This document shows, piece after piece, positions 10,980-22,247 of a DNA stretch of 40,532 nucleotides. The DNA comes from Candidatus Hydrothermota bacterium (GTDB taxonomy: Bacteria; Hydrothermota; Hydrothermia; B15-G9; DRBW01), in the NCBI GenBank assembly GCA_021158525.1, contig JAGGUL010000052.1:1-40532 (forward strand), read 5' to 3'. Position 1 is the stretch's first letter; every line of letters begins with the position of its first letter. The translations under genes were made by a program, and so were the position numbers. Under the pieces are notes generated by a model, which was not told where the DNA came from, searched no databases, and was given only the letters and a program-made list of their open reading frames with translations.

Positions 10980-11864
10980 TCAGCCTTTTCTCAGTTTTAT
11001 CTCGATAAACCTTTTGCCCGCGAGATCCCCTGTGGGGAACCTGTTTTCGGCCCTTATATAATCCTCCTTGAGGGCGATCCCCGACTTGATCATGTCCAGC
11101 ACGACTCCCGCACAGTCCCCGGCCACATCAGCCCTGTCATCGTAAACAACTATATCTATCCCGCTGACGAACTCCTCCCTGGCCATGTTCATGGCCTCCC
11201 TCAACACATCGTTCCCCCAGGGAGTGAGCTTGAAAAGTTCGGGATCATAAGCCCTGGAGGCTTCGATCCTTATGACGATCTCGCGCCCCTTTCTAAATGC
11301 AAAAGCGGGAACATTGATGTGCTCCAGCATAAGGGTCACGGTATCCTTATCCACCACATCTAACATGCAGGCATAGGGAGTGCCTATCTCCAGCAACTTC
11401 CCGTCATCGGTGAGGCCGTCCCACTCGATCTTTTCGGGAGGTCGCCCCTTCCCGCTCAAGGTCTTCACGGGAGTTCCCGCAGGATCTATTATCCTCAGCC
11501 GCCAGAACCTGTACCTGCGCCTCACTTTCCCGGGAAGTTCTATCGTTATCCTGTCGACAAGTTTCTTCGAGGGCAGAGGTTCTCTCAAAAATCCCGAGTG
11601 CTGCACGATCCCGGGGAAAAGGGCCACTTTCATTTTACGGTCGAACTCACCCTGTACCTTAATCTCCTTGCCGACGAGAAGGGTATCGAGGGCCTCGACG
11701 GGATCGAGCCAGAGTCCGAGAAGGGGCTTGGGCTCGTCGATCTTGATCTCAGCCTGCGCCTCGATCACCTCTTTCCTCACGATTTTTCCGCTGTCAGGCT
11801 CCTGACCCGCAAGGGCCGAAGCCAGACAGAAGACTGCAAAAATCAAACTCACCGAATCTCTCAT
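10980..11864 (-). CDS. Periplasmic protein with FlgD-like and degenerate OmpA-like domains, in the Ton operon
   Basis: A 294-residue exported protein with signal peptide MRDSVSLIFAVFCLASALAG. The middle part reads like a FlgD-type Ig domain (WRLRIIDPAGTPVKTLSG then IEWDGLTDDGK, about 145-185). The last 85 residues follow the OmpA/Pal layout: FKLTPWGNDVLREAM, then GIDIVVYDDRADVAGD, DMIKSGIALKEDYIRAE and a final beta strand. The usual peptidoglycan-binding Asp/Arg pattern (NxxLSxxRA) is not recognisable. Position as last gene of the TPR-ExbB-ExbD-ExbD-TonB operon recalls Pal in Tol-Pal clusters. The start is ATG at 11864 behind GAGGTGG; the frame extends upstream only to a GTG inside that ribosome site. 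The function is inferred. Confidence 0.7.
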   Translation of the reverse strand: MRDSVSLIFAVFCLASALAGQEPDSGKIVRKEVIEAQAEIKIDEPKPLLGLWLDPVEALDTLLVGKEIKVQGEFDRKMKVALFPGIVQHSGFLREPLPSKKLVDRITIELPGKVRRRYRFWRLRIIDPAGTPVKTLSGKGRPPEKIEWDGLTDDGKLLEIGTPYACMLDVVDKDTVTLMLEHINVPAFAFRKGREIVIRIEASRAYDPELFKLTPWGNDVLREAMNMAREEFVSGIDIVVYDDRADVAGDCAGVVLDMIKSGIALKEDYIRAENRFPTGDLAGKRFIEIKLRKG

Positions 11865-11874
11865 TTCCTCCACC

Positions 11875-12819
11875 TCATTTTAACACGAATTTGACCACGA
11901 GAATTCCCCATTGTATCTTATCTTTCAGAGCCTCCGGCAGGGGCTCGAACCGCCATCTCTTCAAAGCATTGATGACGGCATCGTCCAGCTCAGGATATCC
12001 CGAGCTGGATTCCACGAAAATACTCGAGCCCTTTACTTCTCCAGACGGCAACACCAGAAATCTCACGACCACCGTACCCGAAATGCCCTTTCTCTTCGCC
12101 CTGACAGGGTACTCGGGCAGCACCTTTCTCAAGATTTTCCTGTCCTTGACCTCGCCCCCTATGGAGAGGCTGGACTTCGCCTTCCTCTGGGCCGGCAAAG
12201 GCTTGAGCTGCTTTTTCTCCTCGATCTTTATTTCCTTTTTCTTCTCGGGCACATAGGTTTTTTCGAGCTCTATTTTTTTCTCGATGCCGGCCTGCCCGGA
12301 AAGAGAAACCAGGCCACCGCTTCCAACGGGGGCAGTTCTCTTCTCCAATTTCACCGGCTCTTCCTTCAATATCTCCGCAGTGCTCTTCAATTTGCTCTCA
12401 TCGGTGCTGAGGGCTATCACGTCCTCCACAGGTATGCCGGCCACGGGCTCAACTTTCTCGAGATCGATGAGGGCCTGCGTCTCCAGTTTCTTGTGACCGT
12501 CAAGGTCGATCTTCGGGGTCTCTATCGGCTCCGGAGCCGTCTCCTCGGCAACATGGATCTTCTCGATGGCAGGAGGGGGAGCCTCCTTCTCCTCGGAGCG
12601 TCCTGCCAGCAACGAGAGGATGTCGGGGTTCTCAGAAACTATCGGCGACTTTTTAATCACCTTCTGAGCACTGGGGGGATAGCTCATATCCACAAAGGTG
12701 ACCTCCCTTATTTTCTCCGCCTCGGCCTCCTCCTTCCTGCTGTCAAGGTAGGCGATCAGGGCGAGGTGGATCAGAACCGAAGCGGCTATTGCCAGGTAAA
12801 GGGAGATCCTTCCGTTCAT
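11875..12819 (-). CDS. tonB: TonB-family energy transducer
   Basis: Transmits proton-motive energy from ExbB/ExbD to outer-membrane receptors. The 314-residue protein has an N-terminal anchor (about 6-24), a long charged, proline-containing periplasmic stretch (30-220) and a TonB C-terminal domain (about 225-314) with LPEYPVRAKRKGISGTVVV, SSSGYPELDDAVINALKRW and FEPLP. It overlaps the second exbD by 4 bases (ATGA). The BtuB-like receptor at 19490-21217 is an obvious client. The presence of a true TonB C-domain argues against TolA, although the operon also recalls Tol-Pal. Confidence 0.93.
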   Translation of the reverse strand: MNGRISLYLAIAASVLIHLALIAYLDSRKEEAEAEKIREVTFVDMSYPPSAQKVIKKSPIVSENPDILSLLAGRSEEKEAPPPAIEKIHVAEETAPEPIETPKIDLDGHKKLETQALIDLEKVEPVAGIPVEDVIALSTDESKLKSTAEILKEEPVKLEKRTAPVGSGGLVSLSGQAGIEKKIELEKTYVPEKKKEIKIEEKKQLKPLPAQRKAKSSLSIGGEVKDRKILRKVLPEYPVRAKRKGISGTVVVRFLVLPSGEVKGSSIFVESSSGYPELDDAVINALKRWRFEPLPEALKDKIQWGILVVKFVLK

Positions 12820-13223
12820 AATCTCTTCTCTTTTTTCTTCACGGTGGCAAAGGCTATCCTCTTTGCACCGAGAGATTTAACTACAGACAAAAGATCGATA
12901 ACCTTGCCGAAATGTTCCTTCTTGTCGGCCCTGATAATGGTCAGCCTGTATGGATCTTTCTCGTAGTACTGCTTGAGCCTGGCTTTCAGGCTATCGGGCG
13001 ATATGGGGCGATCGTTGAGGGTGAGGAGGCCTTCGGGCGTGATCGTGATGCTGAGGTTCTCCTCCAATTTCGTCTCCGCCGTTCCGGTCTCCGGCAAATT
13101 CACCTTTGTGCTGGAATGGGTCAAAAGCACTGGTGCTGTCACCATCAGCATTATCAGCACAAGCATGGCAACGCCGGCCATGGGAACGATCGTCTCCGAA
13201 ACGGTATCTTTGAAGTGATTCAT
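12816..13223 (-). CDS. ExbD/TolR-family protein lacking the proton-carrying Asp
   Basis: A 135-residue single-pass protein with a short cytoplasmic N-terminus, one transmembrane helix (about 12-34) and a periplasmic ExbD domain (STKVNLPETG, LTLNDRPISPDSL). Aligned with ExbD/TolR, the helix reads IVPMAGVAMLVLIMLMVTAP, where the family has VP-x-x-D-V. The invariant Asp (Asp25 in E. coli ExbD) is therefore Gly17 here. The neighbouring ExbD at 13220-13633 keeps it. The protein probably works as the non-protonatable half of a heterodimer. It overlaps both neighbours by 4 bases. Confidence 0.88.
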   Translation of the reverse strand: MNHFKDTVSETIVPMAGVAMLVLIMLMVTAPVLLTHSSTKVNLPETGTAETKLEENLSITITPEGLLTLNDRPISPDSLKARLKQYYEKDPYRLTIIRADKKEHFGKVIDLLSVVKSLGAKRIAFATVKKKEKRL

Positions 13224-13633
13224 CCTCTCCTCCTCAAAATCACAAGTTCTGCCGCTCCCTTCTCTTTTGAAAGGTCGAGGATTTCTATCACCCTCTCGTA
13301 GTCAACCGACGTATCGGCGGAGACGATAACTTTTCTGTCGGCACTCCGCTTCAGAAGCTCGGGGAGCAACTTCCCCAGTTCTTTCCTGTCGACGGGCTCG
13401 TCGTTCAGAAGGATACTTCCGTCGGACTTCAGGTAGATGTTGACCTTTATATCGCTGGAGGGTTTTCCCTTCGTCGCGGCCACCCCTGGGGCATTCACGA
13501 AAATGCCCGTCTCAAAGACAAAAGGAAGGGCCACCACAAACATTATAAGAAGGGAAAGGGACACGTCCACAAGAGGGACTATGTTGACCTTCCCCCGTCG
13601 TATTCCCTCGTATTTCCTCTTACCTCGCCTCAT
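13220..13633 (-). CDS. exbD: Biopolymer transport protein ExbD
   Basis: A 137-residue ExbD with a basic N-terminus (RRGKRKYEGIRRGK), a transmembrane helix containing NIVPLVDVSLSLLIMFVVA and the essential Asp at residue 23, and a periplasmic domain with ILLNDEPVDRKELG and VSADTSVDYERVIEILD. It carries protons through the ExbB pentamer and drives TonB. It overlaps exbB by 14 bases and the second exbD by 4, implying coupled translation. Confidence 0.93.
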   Translation of the reverse strand: MRRGKRKYEGIRRGKVNIVPLVDVSLSLLIMFVVALPFVFETGIFVNAPGVAATKGKPSSDIKVNIYLKSDGSILLNDEPVDRKELGKLLPELLKRSADRKVIVSADTSVDYERVIEILDLSKEKGAAELVILRRRG

Positions 13634-14264
13634 CGCTGGCTCTGTGGTGAGACCCCACGAGGAGATAGAGCAGTTTAGACTTCATCGCCTCCATCTCATT
13701 TACCGTGTCCAGGGCCTTATTTGCGAAGTAGTTATAGAAAACCACAACGGGAATCGCGATGATAAGTCCGAAAGCCGTCGTGAGGAGCGCTTCAGCTATG
13801 CCCGAGGCGACCACAGCAGGCCCTCCCGATCCCGTCACAGCTATGTTGTGAAAGGCCTTGATGAGGCCGACAACGGTTCCCAGAAGTCCGAGAAGGGGTG
13901 CAATAGTGCCTATGGACCCCAGGGCTCCCAGATACCTCTCCATCGCCCTCCGTTCATCGAGAACCGTGCTCTCGAGCAGTTCGTTCATGCCATCTTCGTC
14001 GAGGTCGTCGTTCTCCAGCGCTATCCTGATGAGATTGGACACAGGATCTTTCCTGCCCCTGAGCAGTTCGAGGGCCTCTTCCTTCCTTCCCGAACGCAAC
14101 AGGTTCTTTATCCTGTTGAAAAGCTTGCCCCCGCTCTTCCTGCGCCTCAGCCAGAAAACATATCTCTCGATCACGAAGGCCAGAGCCATAATCGAGACCA
14201 GTAAGAGCAGGTCCATAACCCAGCTGGACTTAAATATCTGAAACAGGCTGCTTCCCAACACCAT
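13620..14264 (-). CDS. exbB: MotA/TolQ/ExbB proton channel protein
   Basis: A 214-residue inner-membrane protein with three hydrophobic segments: one near 17-35 and two in the conserved channel region, ALGSIGTIAPLLGLLGTVVG (about 114-133) and GIAEALLTTAFGLIIAIPVV (about 155-174). Together with ExbD it forms the ion channel that energises TonB. Only 2 bases separate it from the end of the TPR gene upstream. A TolQ assignment is possible from sequence alone; the TonB in the same operon favours ExbB. Confidence 0.92.
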   Translation of the reverse strand: MVLGSSLFQIFKSSWVMDLLLLVSIMALAFVIERYVFWLRRRKSGGKLFNRIKNLLRSGRKEEALELLRGRKDPVSNLIRIALENDDLDEDGMNELLESTVLDERRAMERYLGALGSIGTIAPLLGLLGTVVGLIKAFHNIAVTGSGGPAVVASGIAEALLTTAFGLIIAIPVVVFYNYFANKALDTVNEMEAMKSKLLYLLVGSHHRASDEAR

Positions 14265-14266
14265 CT

Positions 14267-17089
14267 TTATTTACCTCCTTGAATTGATTTGAGATAAGCG
14301 ATCTTATCCTCCAGGGCTTTCCTTACCCCCTCATCGGAAACCAGCTCGAGCATCTCTCTGTAAACAGAAAGGGCGTCTGAGTAAGCGCCTTCTTTCTCGT
14401 AAATGGCGCCGAGATCGGCCATCGCGCGGAGCCAATCGGGATCCTGGCTCCTGTATCTCCTGGCCCGGCTGTAGTATTCCTTGGCTTTGACAATGTCACC
14501 CTTTTCCCTGTATGCCTTCCCGAGAAGGTAGTAGTACTTGAGTTTTTCCACTTTTCCTCTCGGTGGATTTATGAGAAGCATATCGATGGCCTTGTCGTAG
14601 TCTCCACCCTCAATCAGCATCCTCGCGGCTTCTGCCTTCATCTCGAAACCCCCGCCCGAGGATGAGCCCAGGACCTCCACGGCCTTCTCCCGTTTACCGA
14701 GCCTCTTGTAAACGAGGGAGAGATACTTCCTGGATTTCTCCGCATATTTACCATCAGGGAAACGTTCCTGGAGCTCCTCGAAAGTCCTGGCCGCCTCCTC
14801 CAGCTTGTTCTGGTTATACTGCGCCACTCCCAGGTTGAAGAGGGCGAGGGGCTCGTCATCGGAGCCGGGGAAATATTCGAGAAACTTCCTGTAGCCTTTC
14901 TCGCTCTTATCCCATTCACCGAGAAGAGCATAGCACTCGGAATAAAGAAGCTGAGCCTTGGGAGCCAGATCGCTATCGGGAAATCGCATGACAACCTTCT
15001 CGAATTCACGGGCTGCCTCCCTGTATTTCTCATCATCCATAAGGTTTCTCGCCAGCTTAAACTGTGCCTCAGCAGCTATTTCCAGGTCCTTAAAGTTCTC
15101 CGCCAGAGCCCTCAGGGCCGAAGTATCGCTCTCCCCTTTCATGTAGAGGCACATGGCCAGGCCCTCCCTTGCAGAGCCTTTCCTCTTGTCGTCCGGATAA
15201 AGCTGAAGGAACTTGGTGAATTCCTCGATTGCGCGATCAAAATCCTTCATGTTGTAGTAGGCCTGGGCCATCAGAAGCTGAGCAGTACGTGATACCTCAT
15301 TGTCCGGGTAATGCTGAGTCAGCCAGCGGAAAAGGGCGATAGCCCTGTCGTACTTGCCGGCCTTGTAATAGGTATCACCGGCTTTAAGGGCTGCCATGGG
15401 AACTTTCTCGCTCTCGGGATATTCCTCGAGCAATTTCTCCCAGCTCTCTATCGCCTGAAGATAGTACTCGAGCTGATAATAGCTCAATCCAGCATAATAA
15501 AGGGATTTAGATGCGAGGTCGGCCCTTTCAGGGTAGTCCCTGTGCAGGCTCTCGAAGAAGCTCAGGGCTTTCTCGTAATCTCTCAGATTGAAGTACACGA
15601 CGCCCAATCCGAAGCGGGCCAATGGAGTTCTTATTGAGTCATCTGGAAACAGCTCCAGCACATGTCTGAAAGACTTCTCTGCCTCCTCATAGCGACCCAC
15701 GTGAGCCAGAGTGAAACCGTAGCCTATCTCCGCAAAGGAAGCTATCTCATCGCCCGGATAATCCAGAAGAACCCGGTGATAAAGTTTTTCAGCCTCCGGG
15801 AAATCGCCATGGTAGTAGTAAGCCTCGGCAAGGTAATAGAGAGCGCGCGGGAAATAAGGGCTCTCTATCTCTTCATGCTCCGCGAGAAAGCCTGCCCCCG
15901 CCGCTATCGCCCGGTCGTATTCGTCGGCCCTGTCGAGAGAATTGAGGAGCATGGCGAAGCTCAGGCCCAACAATTCACCGTCTCTTGATGCCTGGAGCAC
16001 CTTCTCGAAATAGGAGGCTGCCTCTTTAAATTCACCGGAAGCGTAATAAAGGGCCCCCGTGAGGTAATCTCCCATGCCCTCGAGGCCATAATTGCCCTCC
16101 TCCCCTGACAGCCTCGATGCTATTTTCATGGCTTCCTCCACGTTCCCCTTTTCGGCGAGGGCCTCAGCTGACCTCATAAGAGAAAAGGGATAAAAGCCCG
16201 AGCGCCCGTAGGTGTCAGCCACTTTTCTGAAAAACCTGATGGCCCCTTCGCTGTTGCCGAGCTCCAGTTCGCATTCCCCCATATAATAGTAAGATGCTGC
16301 CGCCAGCGCTTTGTCACCCGATTCCGATGAAGCCCTGAACAGCGAGAGGGCTTCGTTATACCTCTTATCTCTCAGGAGACAAAAGCCCGCCAGAAACTGC
16401 GCATAGGGTTTTAACTCGCCTTCGTAATCCTTGAGATAGGTTTCAAACCGGTCATAAGCCGCATCCATGTCACCGTTTAGAAGAAGGGCCTGTCCCTGGG
16501 AAAAAAGGCTCAGCCCCCTGAGGGAAGTGTCGGGGGATTCCCTGAGGACCTTCTCGAAAAGCGGAAGCGCCTCCCGAGGGCGGTTGAGCTTGAGAAGCGC
16601 TCTACCCCGGAGGTAAAGGGCAATCGGGTCCTCCTCGTTCTCCGTTCTCGAAAAAACAGCCCTGTATTTGCCAGTTTTATAGTATAGAAGTGCAAACCCA
16701 AGTCTGGCCCTCTCTGCTCCTCCCCACGTCACCAGAGATTCCAGCCGCTCAAAGGAATGCCTGGCTCGAGCGGTATCCCCTGCCATAAGCGCTGAAAGGC
16801 CCAACATATAGAGAACCTCAGTCTCCAGGTAAGTCCCTCTGCTTTTTCTCAGGAGATTCTCGAAGATCTCGAGGGCCTTCACGGGATCGCCCGAATTGAA
16901 GTAACATTCCCCGATCCTGTACTCGAACTCCCTGGCGAAATCCGGCATCTCCCTGGTCAGTTTTTTCAGCTCCTTGATCGCGCTCCGATAATCTCCGCCT
17001 TTTATGTGTTGAACGGCGAGATTATAGCGCTCCACTGGGCTTGCCTTTCCGCCCAACAAGATGGAGACGGCGATGACAACGGAGATCAT
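14267..17089 (-). CDS. Large exported TPR-repeat protein heading the Ton operon
   Basis: A 940-residue protein with a short hydrophobic leader (MISVVIAVSILLGG) followed almost entirely by tetratricopeptide repeats; more than 20 units are recognisable, for example YRIGECYFNSGDPVKALEIF, YMLGLSALMAGDTARARHSF and YYAGLSYYQLEYYLQAIESW. Spacing is typical of YbgF/CpoB- and BamD-like repeats with LYP or YP at unit ends. It is probably periplasmic. As first gene of the exbB-exbD-exbD-tonB operon it may organise that machinery, much as the TPR protein CpoB accompanies Tol-Pal; that role is inferred. The leader region carries a promoter and a palindrome. Confidence 0.88.
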   Translation of the reverse strand: MISVVIAVSILLGGKASPVERYNLAVQHIKGGDYRSAIKELKKLTREMPDFAREFEYRIGECYFNSGDPVKALEIFENLLRKSRGTYLETEVLYMLGLSALMAGDTARARHSFERLESLVTWGGAERARLGFALLYYKTGKYRAVFSRTENEEDPIALYLRGRALLKLNRPREALPLFEKVLRESPDTSLRGLSLFSQGQALLLNGDMDAAYDRFETYLKDYEGELKPYAQFLAGFCLLRDKRYNEALSLFRASSESGDKALAAASYYYMGECELELGNSEGAIRFFRKVADTYGRSGFYPFSLMRSAEALAEKGNVEEAMKIASRLSGEEGNYGLEGMGDYLTGALYYASGEFKEAASYFEKVLQASRDGELLGLSFAMLLNSLDRADEYDRAIAAGAGFLAEHEEIESPYFPRALYYLAEAYYYHGDFPEAEKLYHRVLLDYPGDEIASFAEIGYGFTLAHVGRYEEAEKSFRHVLELFPDDSIRTPLARFGLGVVYFNLRDYEKALSFFESLHRDYPERADLASKSLYYAGLSYYQLEYYLQAIESWEKLLEEYPESEKVPMAALKAGDTYYKAGKYDRAIALFRWLTQHYPDNEVSRTAQLLMAQAYYNMKDFDRAIEEFTKFLQLYPDDKRKGSAREGLAMCLYMKGESDTSALRALAENFKDLEIAAEAQFKLARNLMDDEKYREAAREFEKVVMRFPDSDLAPKAQLLYSECYALLGEWDKSEKGYRKFLEYFPGSDDEPLALFNLGVAQYNQNKLEEAARTFEELQERFPDGKYAEKSRKYLSLVYKRLGKREKAVEVLGSSSGGGFEMKAEAARMLIEGGDYDKAIDMLLINPPRGKVEKLKYYYLLGKAYREKGDIVKAKEYYSRARRYRSQDPDWLRAMADLGAIYEKEGAYSDALSVYREMLELVSDEGVRKALEDKIAYLKSIQGGK

Positions 17090-19415: not shown

Positions 19416-19458
19416 CTCTAAACCGCCCCCGGGGGTAAGGGGTGAGGTTGAGTATCGA

Positions 19459-19487
19459 CTCCCTCGCATCCCGGGCAGCTCGAGGAG
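19459..19487 (+). promoter_or_regulatory. Candidate Shine-Dalgarno-sequestering hairpin (riboswitch expression platform)
   Basis: CTCCCTCG (19459-19466) can pair, with one bulged C, with CGAGGAG (19481-19487), the ribosome site of the BtuB-like gene; the loop is 14 bases. The GC-rich CCCCCGGGGG and GGGGTGAGG tract at 19426-19446 could compete for the same pyrimidines. No terminator with a T-run is seen, so control at translation is favoured. This is inferred from base pairing by eye. Confidence 0.4.
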
Positions 19488-19489
19488 AG

Positions 19490-21217
19490 ATGAAGCTGCT
19501 TATACTGCTATTACTTGCCATATCGAACTCTCAGGAAGCATGGGGCCCTTTCTATCTTAAGGAAGTCCTCGTCACGGCATCCAGATACGGAGACGAGTTA
19601 TTCACAGCCCCCTTCTCTTCGGCAGTACTTTACCCACAGGAAGACAGATGGCATAGCTCTTTCCTCGCATATCCCGGGCTATCCGTCCGCGATTACGGCA
19701 ACCTGCTTCAGATATCGAGGCGGGGAACTGCCTCTGAAGAAAACCTCCTTTTGCTCGAAGGCGTCCCCCTCAACTCTCCTCAGTCGGGAACCGTCGACCT
19801 TCAGCTCATTCCCCCCTCCTTTATAGATAGGGTCGAAATCAGGAGCGGCGGTTCCTCTCTCTTGGGCCCGGGAGCAATGGGGGGTGCCCTCGCCCTTTCT
19901 CTCCTGGGCACAGGGGGAAGATTCAGCGGTAGCCTTTCTGCAGGTAATTTTTCTCGAAGAGGAATCTCATTCACAGGAAGAAAATCTATCGGGGGATTCG
20001 CCCTGACTTTTGCGGCAGATGCCTCAGGGGAAAAGGGAAATTATCCCTATAAAGACACGTGGGGGAAAATGCGCTTCAGGGAGAACAACGACAGCAAAAG
20101 GCTGGCTGCGGCGCTGAAGCTGACCTCGGTCAATTTCGACGGTTTCTTCATGATGTCGAACCTGGAGTGCGGCGTCCCCGGACCAGTGGGCAGCCCGATG
20201 AGATCAAGAAGGCTTGAGAGCCTGACGGTAGCCAAACTAGGGTTAAAAAAAGATCCCTGTGAGTTAAGGGTCTTCCTCAGCAGGGATTACCTTGAATACC
20301 TGGGAAAACCTTCTACTGAGAAAATCCTGGGAAATATCCTGGGATTCACTGCTGCTGTGGCTTCGCCATTCCGTATCAGGGGAGGAGCCACGCTCCAAAG
20401 CGGCAGTTCCACACGAACAGGGAAGAAAAAGAAACTCGATCTCTTTTTAACGGGGGGACAGAAGGTCATTCTCGGCCCTCTAAAGCTGACTCCGGAGTTC
20501 TACCTGAGCACGACGCCTCCCGATCCTCCACTCCTGACTTATTTTCTGGGTGCAGGCCTTTCTGCGGCGAAAGACGTGTTCCTTTATGCCAATTTCTCGA
20601 CTAACCTCAGAAGGCCCACTTTCAACGAGCTCTACTGGCAGGGAGATCCCTTCGCCAGCGGGAATCCCAATCTGAGGCCCGAAAAGGGTTGGCTGACGGA
20701 GGGAGGTATCAGGATGAGAAATTCCCGCCTCTCCTTCGATATCTCTTTCTATACGGGGGAAAACCGCGATATGATAGTCTGGGAGCCGACAGAGGATGGG
20801 CTCTGGAGCCCCAGGAATAAGAAAGAAGTGATCCTGATGGGCAATGAAACTCATATTTACTTCAAATTCAAATTCCTCTTGCTGTATTTGTTTTACGGCC
20901 TCAATAGCATAACCTCCGAAGGAAGGCAGCTCATGCTTCGTCCTCTTCACAGCGGAAGGCTCGAGGTCAGTGCCCCTTTTTTCAAGGCCAGGCTTAATTT
21001 TGTCGGAGAGAGATATGAGAGGCCCTCGGGGCCAAAAAAAATGCCCTCTTTCCTGACTTTCGACATCCTTTTTAGATTCGAAAGAAATTTCGATTTTGGC
21101 GACATAGGAGTGGAATTATGCATCTATAACGTCTTCGACAGGCAATACGAACTTGTAAGGGGATATCCCCTTCCCGGGCGTTATTTTAACCTGAAGGTCA
21201 GTGCAAACATATTGTGA
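19490..21217 (+). CDS. btuB: TonB-dependent receptor, BtuB-like (vitamin B12)
   Basis: A 575-residue outer-membrane beta-barrel receptor. The signal peptide is MKLLILLLLAISNSQEAWG; a TonB-box-like LKEVLVTAS follows; the plug domain runs to about residue 140 (YPGLSVRDYGNLLQISRRG, LLLEGVPLNSP, IDRVEIRSGGSSLLGPGAMG). Barrel strands follow, with the conserved RRPTFNELYWQGDPFASGNP and NLRPEKGW and the C-terminal YNVFDRQYELVRG. The barrel is short for the superfamily and ends in Leu, not the usual Phe. Cobalamin specificity is inferred from the riboswitch directly upstream. The start is ATG at 19490 behind CGAGGAG; an upstream GTG at 19442 has no ribosome site. The propeller lipoprotein follows 13 bases downstream. 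Confidence 0.92.
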   Translation: MKLLILLLLAISNSQEAWGPFYLKEVLVTASRYGDELFTAPFSSAVLYPQEDRWHSSFLAYPGLSVRDYGNLLQISRRGTASEENLLLLEGVPLNSPQSGTVDLQLIPPSFIDRVEIRSGGSSLLGPGAMGGALALSLLGTGGRFSGSLSAGNFSRRGISFTGRKSIGGFALTFAADASGEKGNYPYKDTWGKMRFRENNDSKRLAAALKLTSVNFDGFFMMSNLECGVPGPVGSPMRSRRLESLTVAKLGLKKDPCELRVFLSRDYLEYLGKPSTEKILGNILGFTAAVASPFRIRGGATLQSGSSTRTGKKKKLDLFLTGGQKVILGPLKLTPEFYLSTTPPDPPLLTYFLGAGLSAAKDVFLYANFSTNLRRPTFNELYWQGDPFASGNPNLRPEKGWLTEGGIRMRNSRLSFDISFYTGENRDMIVWEPTEDGLWSPRNKKEVILMGNETHIYFKFKFLLLYLFYGLNSITSEGRQLMLRPLHSGRLEVSAPFFKARLNFVGERYERPSGPKKMPSFLTFDILFRFERNFDFGDIGVELCIYNVFDRQYELVRGYPLPGRYFNLKVSANIL

Positions 21218-21230
21218 AAGGAGGTATGTC

Positions 21231-22247
21231 ATGAAAAAGTGGTTCCTGGTGGGGCTTCTCGCCCTCACCGCGTGCTCTGAGAAGGAAGAAACCGGAATGT
21301 CGTCGGCGGGAAACAGAATCTATGTCCTTCAGGGCATATCTGAAACCGTCTCTATATACGACATCGATAACGACACCCTGCTAAAGGACGTATTCATAAC
21401 CGGAAACACGCCCAATTACCTCGTCTTTCACGGAGATCACGGGTACATAGTGAATTCCGGCTTCACGGGAGATGCATCTATAACCCTTTTTGATCCCTCT
21501 ACGAACAAAGAGATAACAGATTTTCCGCTTCCGGCTGGCTCGAACCCTTATGCAGCAGCGGTGGCCAACGACAGGCTCTTTGTCACCCTCTTTCTCAAAA
21601 ACATGGTTTATGTCCTCGATTGCGAGACCGGCGATCCTATCGATTCCATCCCGGTGAAAAGCGGCCCCGAGGGAATAATATCAGCCAACGGAGCAGTCTA
21701 CGTGGCCTGTACCGGCATACAGCCCGATTACAGTTACAGCGATGCCTGGGTTTTAAAGATAGACCCAGAAACTCCCGACGTAATCGACAGCCTGAAGGTA
21801 GGAATAAACGTACAGGCCCTCGCTGTGGACTCCAATGGTAGGCTTCATGCCCTCTCCACTGGAGATTATTCGGGAAGGGAAGGAGTTGTTTATGTAATCG
21901 ACCCCGATGGCCTTATTCTCCTAGACAGCGTTTTAATCGGTGGATACCCGGGAAATATCGCCATAAACGGAGATGACATTGCATATCTTGTCGACTGGAA
22001 TCTCGGCTTACTGTCCTATGATGCCGGCGCCCTCACGATTATTCACGGCACGGAGGACCCGATCCAGGTCGGGACAGGCTCTATGGGGATCGATGTAGAC
22101 GGCGAAAACAGAATTTACGTGACGCTCTACTCTGCCTCTGATACCAACTGGATGAAAGTAATATCAGGCGATTCAATCCTGACCACGATAAACCTGGGTA
22201 CGGCCGTCGGGGCCTCTGCCCTGAGGTTTCGTCCGGCGGAGCCTTAG
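21231..22247 (+). CDS. Beta-propeller lipoprotein, BtuG-like candidate B12 binder
   Basis: A 338-residue lipoprotein: signal peptide MKKWFLVGLLALTAC with lipobox LTAC and Cys15, then a Ser/Gly linker and repeated YncE/NHL-like blades (NRIYVLQGISETVSIYDID, GYIVNSGFTGDASITLFDP, RLFVTLFLKNMVYVLDCET, ENRIYVTLYSASDTNW). The NSG-x-x-GDASITLFDP blade recalls the NxG...NasLsyYdp element of DUF5074/BtuG proteins. In Bacteroides, BtuG is a surface propeller lipoprotein encoded beside BtuB that captures cobalamin and cobinamide. Here the gene follows the riboswitch-controlled receptor by 13 bases, behind AAAGGAGGT. The B12-capture role is an inference; a generic YncE-like propeller remains possible. Confidence 0.75.
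   Translation: MKKWFLVGLLALTACSEKEETGMSSAGNRIYVLQGISETVSIYDIDNDTLLKDVFITGNTPNYLVFHGDHGYIVNSGFTGDASITLFDPSTNKEITDFPLPAGSNPYAAAVANDRLFVTLFLKNMVYVLDCETGDPIDSIPVKSGPEGIISANGAVYVACTGIQPDYSYSDAWVLKIDPETPDVIDSLKVGINVQALAVDSNGRLHALSTGDYSGREGVVYVIDPDGLILLDSVLIGGYPGNIAINGDDIAYLVDWNLGLLSYDAGALTIIHGTEDPIQVGTGSMGIDVDGENRIYVTLYSASDTNWMKVISGDSILTTINLGTAVGASALRFRPAEP

Follow-up and report, generated by a model that had tools for sequence, protein, structure and literature searches.

The window analysed here (the whole stretch of 40,532 nucleotides) holds two adjacent genes for ExbD proteins, exbD1 and exbD2, of which only the first encodes the proton-carrying Asp. The pattern among relatives strongly supports a conserved design, and not a local accident, in which an Asp/non-Asp pair would leave a single protonatable ExbD. 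We put at roughly 0.7 the probability that the two proteins form a heterodimeric ExbB5-ExbD1-ExbD2 motor with one proton site that delivers force to a TonB-like protein; the heterodimer, its 5:1:1 stoichiometry, the proton path, the step size and the role in the envelope are features that we infer.

Both proteins belong to the ExbD/TolR family by profile search, ExbD1 matching PF02472 over its whole length (79.6 bits against a cut-off of 25.4) and ExbD2 at 75.1 bits against the same cut-off. Alignments to PDB entries place Asp23 of ExbD1, within the N-terminal transmembrane (TM) helix, and Gly17 of ExbD2 in the column of E. coli ExbD Asp25 and TolR Asp23. Around Gly17 the ExbD2 helix has no Asp or Glu from -3 to +14, and the acid closest to that column is Glu10, at -7 and ahead of the helix, a position similar to one at which E. 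coli ExbD and TolR also carry acids. An AlphaFold model of ExbD2 of moderate confidence (mean pLDDT 73) found only ExbD and TolR as significant PDB matches in Foldseek (E 1.9e-5), and its predicted fold is the periplasmic fold of ExbD. ExbD2 is an ExbD homologue by descent that lacks the proton-carrying Asp. The preliminary description had set Asp23 and Gly17 in one column, had seen no other acid in the ExbD2 helix and had placed the pair at 12816-13633 with an overlap of 4 bases; all of this is borne out, the family alignment that it proposed finding no substitute for the Asp, and the overlap being a shared ATGA at 13220-13223.

Table 1. Genes of the operon containing the exbD pair, in operon order, with positions in the window
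Gene	Positions	Strand	Length	Features
TPR protein	14267-17089	(-)	940 aa	first gene of conserved operon
exbB/tolQ-like	13620-14264	(-)	214 aa	PF01618, E 4e-34; Thr148, Thr181 and Glu176 retained (E. coli numbering)
exbD1	13220-13633	(-)	137 aa	Asp23 present (GAC 13565-13567); contains KVNIVPLVDVSLSLLIMFVV
exbD2	12816-13223	(-)	135 aa	Asp-less, Gly17 (GGC 13173-13175); contains ETIVPMAGVAMLVLIMLMVTAPV
tonB-like force transducer (putative)	11875-12819	(-)	314 aa	PF03544, E 4e-17; TM helix with S-x-x-x-H
OmpA-like, operon-end gene	10980-11873	(-)	297 aa	signal peptide, FlgD-Ig-like domain, OmpA-like C-terminal domain

The genes of the operon are tightly spaced and, from their layout, translationally coupled: exbB overlaps exbD1 by 14 bases and the tonB-like gene overlaps exbD2 by 4. 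The order TPR-ExbB-ExbD1-ExbD2-TonB-OmpA-like is common to nearly all asymmetric loci, and in the alignment the pore threonines of ExbB (Thr148 and Thr181) are retained at every locus. The TonB-like protein possesses a TonB_C domain, and the S-x3-H of its TM helix reads SVLIH; in E. coli TonB this motif contacts ExbB (PMC12215075). Domains of the last protein in the operon were assigned through Pfam matches of its relatives and a fold search; its sequence, judged by eye, has no lipobox. Its relatives carry a motif of the type 'YSxxExLSxxR' in place of the usual OmpA signature, and many of them have a longer paralogue of this FlgD-Ig/OmpA-like protein upstream of the TPR gene. No TolB-like gene was found among the operon genes matched in Pfam. 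On the opposite strand, 2.4 kb from the operon, lies the gene for a 591-aa TonB-dependent receptor-like protein (19442-21217, (+)), which accounts for one of the six Plug domains in the window's genome and is followed by a frame for a surface beta-propeller-like lipoprotein (21201-22247).

A narrow-alignment collection search identified close relatives in candidate division WOR-3, Ca. Stahlbacteria and TA06, together with one 'uncultured bacterium' record, and a scan of candidate phylum WOR-3, to which the window belongs, returned an ExbD match to ExbD2 in 138 of 147 genomes. Sixty WOR-3 loci were read and 49 tandem exbD pairs tallied, the D/D pair of the window's own genome included: one Asp per pair is found in 41, two in eight and none in 0. 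The one-Asp pairs occur in both orientations, with the non-Asp residue in second place in 28 of the 49 (Gly in 12, Cys in 9, Ala in 6 and Asn in 1) and in first place in 13 (Asn in 11, Ser in 2). The preliminary description had proposed a D/G pair with one protonatable ExbD and had named conservation of the Gly as a test of that idea. The Gly is not conserved, being replaced by Asn, Cys, Ala or Ser in relatives, and the Asp-less subunit is not always the same one; what stands is the Asp/non-Asp pairing itself, so the Gly test goes against the original proposal, yet the wider pattern strengthens the case for one Asp. Altered coupling, which the same description had named as a possible effect of a D/G heterodimer, may follow from such a pair.

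Four of the two-Asp pairs (L061, L071, L075 and L080) sit in the same type of operon, which shows that the system is not tied to a single Asp; three of these four (L071, L075 and L080) have two ExbBs, each beside its own ExbD, and may represent two ordinary motors each. In 53 distinct Asp-less helices the key column holds Asn (16), Gly (13), Cys (10), Ala (9) or Ser (5) and nothing else, Pro at -3 is retained in 52, and Ala at +13 with Pro at +14 is mostly kept. Drift at a site within the membrane should have brought in Leu, Ile, Val or Phe, whereas the restriction to these five residues points to a helix still of ExbD type. A substitute acid elsewhere in the helix was sought and rejected, the only instance among the 53 (L059) lying at +13, where the helix nears the periplasm. 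At one locus with a lone Asp-less candidate (L031) the partner is frameshifted with its Asp helix intact. One split operon (L072, G064:C138, 5935-6342) has an Asp-less ExbD2 and a TonB after an SPFH/stomatin-like gene; the partner of this ExbD2, an Asp-bearing ExbD1 with an ExbB, is on another contig (L239).

The history of the pair was examined in an unrooted tree built with the trait column masked. All ExbD1s fall into one clade (45 rows, SH-aLRT 100), comprising 28 with Asp beside an Asp-less ExbD2 (the window type), 13 with Asn or Ser beside an Asp-bearing ExbD2 and four with Asp beside Asp. Their ExbD2 orthologues form a mirror image: the 17 that accompany the second and third groups have Asp, and those of the window type a non-Asp residue. 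By parsimony two changes explain the whole Asp pattern. A single origin of the Asp-less ExbDs was rejected by forcing them into a single clade (AU p 4e-5). On a plain reading, with the direction of change deduced from an unrooted tree, an ancestral Asp/Asp heteropair existed in which one or other subunit gave up its Asp, probably ExbD2 in the window's lineage and ExbD1 in the sister lineage. The Asp-less state is retained in every window-type ExbD2 orthologue read, and is thus more than a chance feature. That both subunits never lose the residue rests on few independent events, about two Asp losses within WOR-3 plus those in other phyla.

One-Asp pairs also occur in at least four phyla beyond WOR-3. 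Since Asp-less proteins served as the queries there, the surveys favour such proteins and speak of existence and not of frequency. The phylum of G354 has one-Asp pairs of types D/S, D/N and D/A in six species, with all three types in a single genome (G391); a D/N pair occurs in the phylum of G262, D/S and D/N pairs in that of G218 and G408, and an N/D pair in G288, which lies outside these sets. Ordinary two-Asp tandem pairs exist outside WOR-3 as well (L149, L153, L156 and L248), and the unpaired ExbDs read in these surveys all bear Asp except one at a contig edge (L218), a lone Asp-less candidate whose contig ends before any partner position. A search of plasmids gave a single annotated ExbD per cluster in the three regions opened.

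A hint on stoichiometry comes from seven loci (L053, L058, L066, L069, L074, L077 and L081) at which open frames of 363-377 aa join an additional ExbB to ExbD1. Each has a separate ExbB gene just upstream and an Asp-bearing ExbD2, and in every case the ExbD within the fusion is the one that lacks the Asp. Given a pentameric ExbB and no more than two ExbD helices per pore, a motor built from four free ExbBs and one fusion would have room for one copy of each ExbD, and the fusions thus fit a motor with a single copy of each. A second correlate lies in ExbB itself: at the position of Glu176 all 21 ExbBs from loci with two Asps or a single ExbD have an acid, and 23 of 48 from asymmetric loci have Val, Ile, Gln or Thr, on several separate branches. 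Post hoc, and with counts that ignore phylogeny, this suggests altered pore chemistry once one Asp had gone.

An ExbD that has lost a residue held essential in E. coli could simply be a decaying paralogue. Within the genus, however, dN/dS is 0.028 for ExbD2, as low as for ExbD1 (0.024), with ExbB at 0.016; ExbD1 and ExbD2 are equally constrained and under purifying selection, ExbD2 is conserved across most of the phylum, and its modelled fold appears uneroded. Decay was rejected on the dN/dS value and the conservation, and we give it next to no credence. A second possibility is a mixed population of D/D, D/G and G/G motors in which the ratio of ExbD1 to ExbD2 tunes output and Asp-less subunits serve as built-in brakes. 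Neutral ion-site mutants of related motors are usually inactive, and on that ground G/G motors would be dead. The D25N variant of ExbD is itself called inactive (PMC11658791). Translational coupling through the 4-base overlap nevertheless points to about equal output of the two subunits, and a pairing that is fixed in most of the phylum suggests that the partner is obligate, making such tuning improbable in our view.

More credible, though still unlikely, is an arrangement in which ExbD1 homodimers with two Asps are the motor and ExbD2 is an accessory that sits beside it, binding peptidoglycan or TonB or acting as a gate, and can do without a proton site. The complete periplasmic ExbD fold predicted for ExbD2 would suit such a protein, its Asp-less state then reflecting a non-motor role. 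Against this, in one lineage it is ExbD2 that lacks the Asp and in another the ExbD1 orthologue, which is difficult to square with a single paralogue being the motor; ExbD2 retains the pattern of the pore helix, with nothing but small or isosteric residues at the key column; and in the fusions it is the Asp-less ExbD that is tethered to ExbB. The one-Asp heteropair, by comparison, is supported by the preponderance of one-Asp pairs and the absence of no-Asp pairs in the WOR-3 tally, by reciprocal loss, by the retained helix pattern and low dN/dS, and by the kept ExbB threonines, the translational coupling, the fixed gene order, the fusions and the occurrence in further phyla. Homodimers of ExbD1 and of ExbD2 could both form as well.

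In the heterodimeric motor, ExbD1 and ExbD2 would be two unlike halves of the axle in one ExbB5-type inner-membrane machine, with the protonatable Asp on ExbD1 only. At the corresponding position of ExbD2, a residue fixed as neutral (Gly in the window, and Asn, Cys, Ala or Ser among relatives) would stand in for an Asp that is always protonated. A neutral residue is known to mimic a protonated Asp, for example D22N in MotB (PMC9389320). Reviews and structures describe a 5:2 machine with two essential Asps, and according to a 2025 structural paper (PMC12215075) every published rotary model takes 36 degrees as the step for each proton and lets the channel alternate between the Asps. By symmetry, a D/neutral dimer with one working site would be expected to advance 72 degrees for each proton, in five steps per turn in place of ten of 36 degrees, or to perform a non-rotary, back-and-forth stroke. 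The TonB-like protein would receive the force, and links from the motor to the outer membrane and cell wall would be made by the TPR and OmpA-like proteins. We regard as an even bet the fuller proposition of a one-site motor of 5:2 type that turns or strokes with a single Asp on about half the protons per turn, that evolved repeatedly and reciprocally, and whose stoichiometry is in some cases set by ExbB-ExbD fusion.

Compared with ExbBD-TonB of E. coli, the system shares ExbB Thr148/Thr181, the ExbD fold and helix, and the Ser16-x3-His20 motif of TonB, and differs in having two unlike ExbDs, one of them Asp-less, instead of a homodimer, and in an operon that has genes for TPR and OmpA-like proteins but lacks one for a receptor. 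The combination of a TPR gene, a TolQ-like and a TolR-like protein, an S-x3-H transducer and an OmpA-fold protein in one operon recalls TolQ-TolR-TolA/Pal/CpoB; here, however, TonB_C replaces the C-terminal domain of TolA, there are two TolR-like proteins, no TolB is seen in the operon, and the OmpA-like protein lacks both a lipobox and the usual OmpA signature. Relative to 5:2 ion-driven rotary motors in general, the ExbB pore threonines are conserved and the putative axle has one ion-binding Asp instead of two. In the window's own genome, a second locus (L005, G000:C93, 2354-7526) encodes an ExbB, two tandem ExbDs, a TonB and, after these, a SusC-like receptor whose start is carboxypeptidase-regulatory-like; it differs from the asymmetric operon in that both ExbDs bear Asp ('TASMADIAFLL'), its TonBs lack S-x3-H and a receptor gene is adjacent. 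As the two-Asp pair adjoins this receptor, the asymmetric operon may be left free for another job, candidates for its envelope role being Tol-Pal-like tethering and Ton-like import.

Two further systems combine one TolQ-like protein with paired TolR-like proteins. In AglR-AglQ-AglS, the gliding motor of Myxococcus, the two TolR-like proteins likewise come from adjacent genes; unlike the pair described here, both AglQ and AglS are reported to have the Asp, and whether they form a heterodimer is stated as unknown (PMC9389320). The PVC group has TPR-TolQ-TolR-TolR-vWA clusters, whose tolR-like pairs have been remarked on as heterologous, with a vWA transducer there where TonB is found here. In the open-access literature searched, AglQ/AglS and the PVC pairs are the nearest described systems. 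That literature, outside which lie most subscription papers and all preprints, nowhere described an Asp-less ExbD with an Asp-bearing partner, so a prior account is possible.

Should motors throughout a phylum work with one Asp each, the assumption of 36-degree steps and two-Asp alternation would not be general, and if the one-site motor is real, this motor family can do work without alternating between two Asps. Pairs of ExbD1 and ExbD2 offer natural material on which step size, protons per turn and directionality can be tested. The pair would also represent a clear division of labour between paralogues within a tiny rotary machine, and reciprocal loss would mean that either half can yield its ion site.
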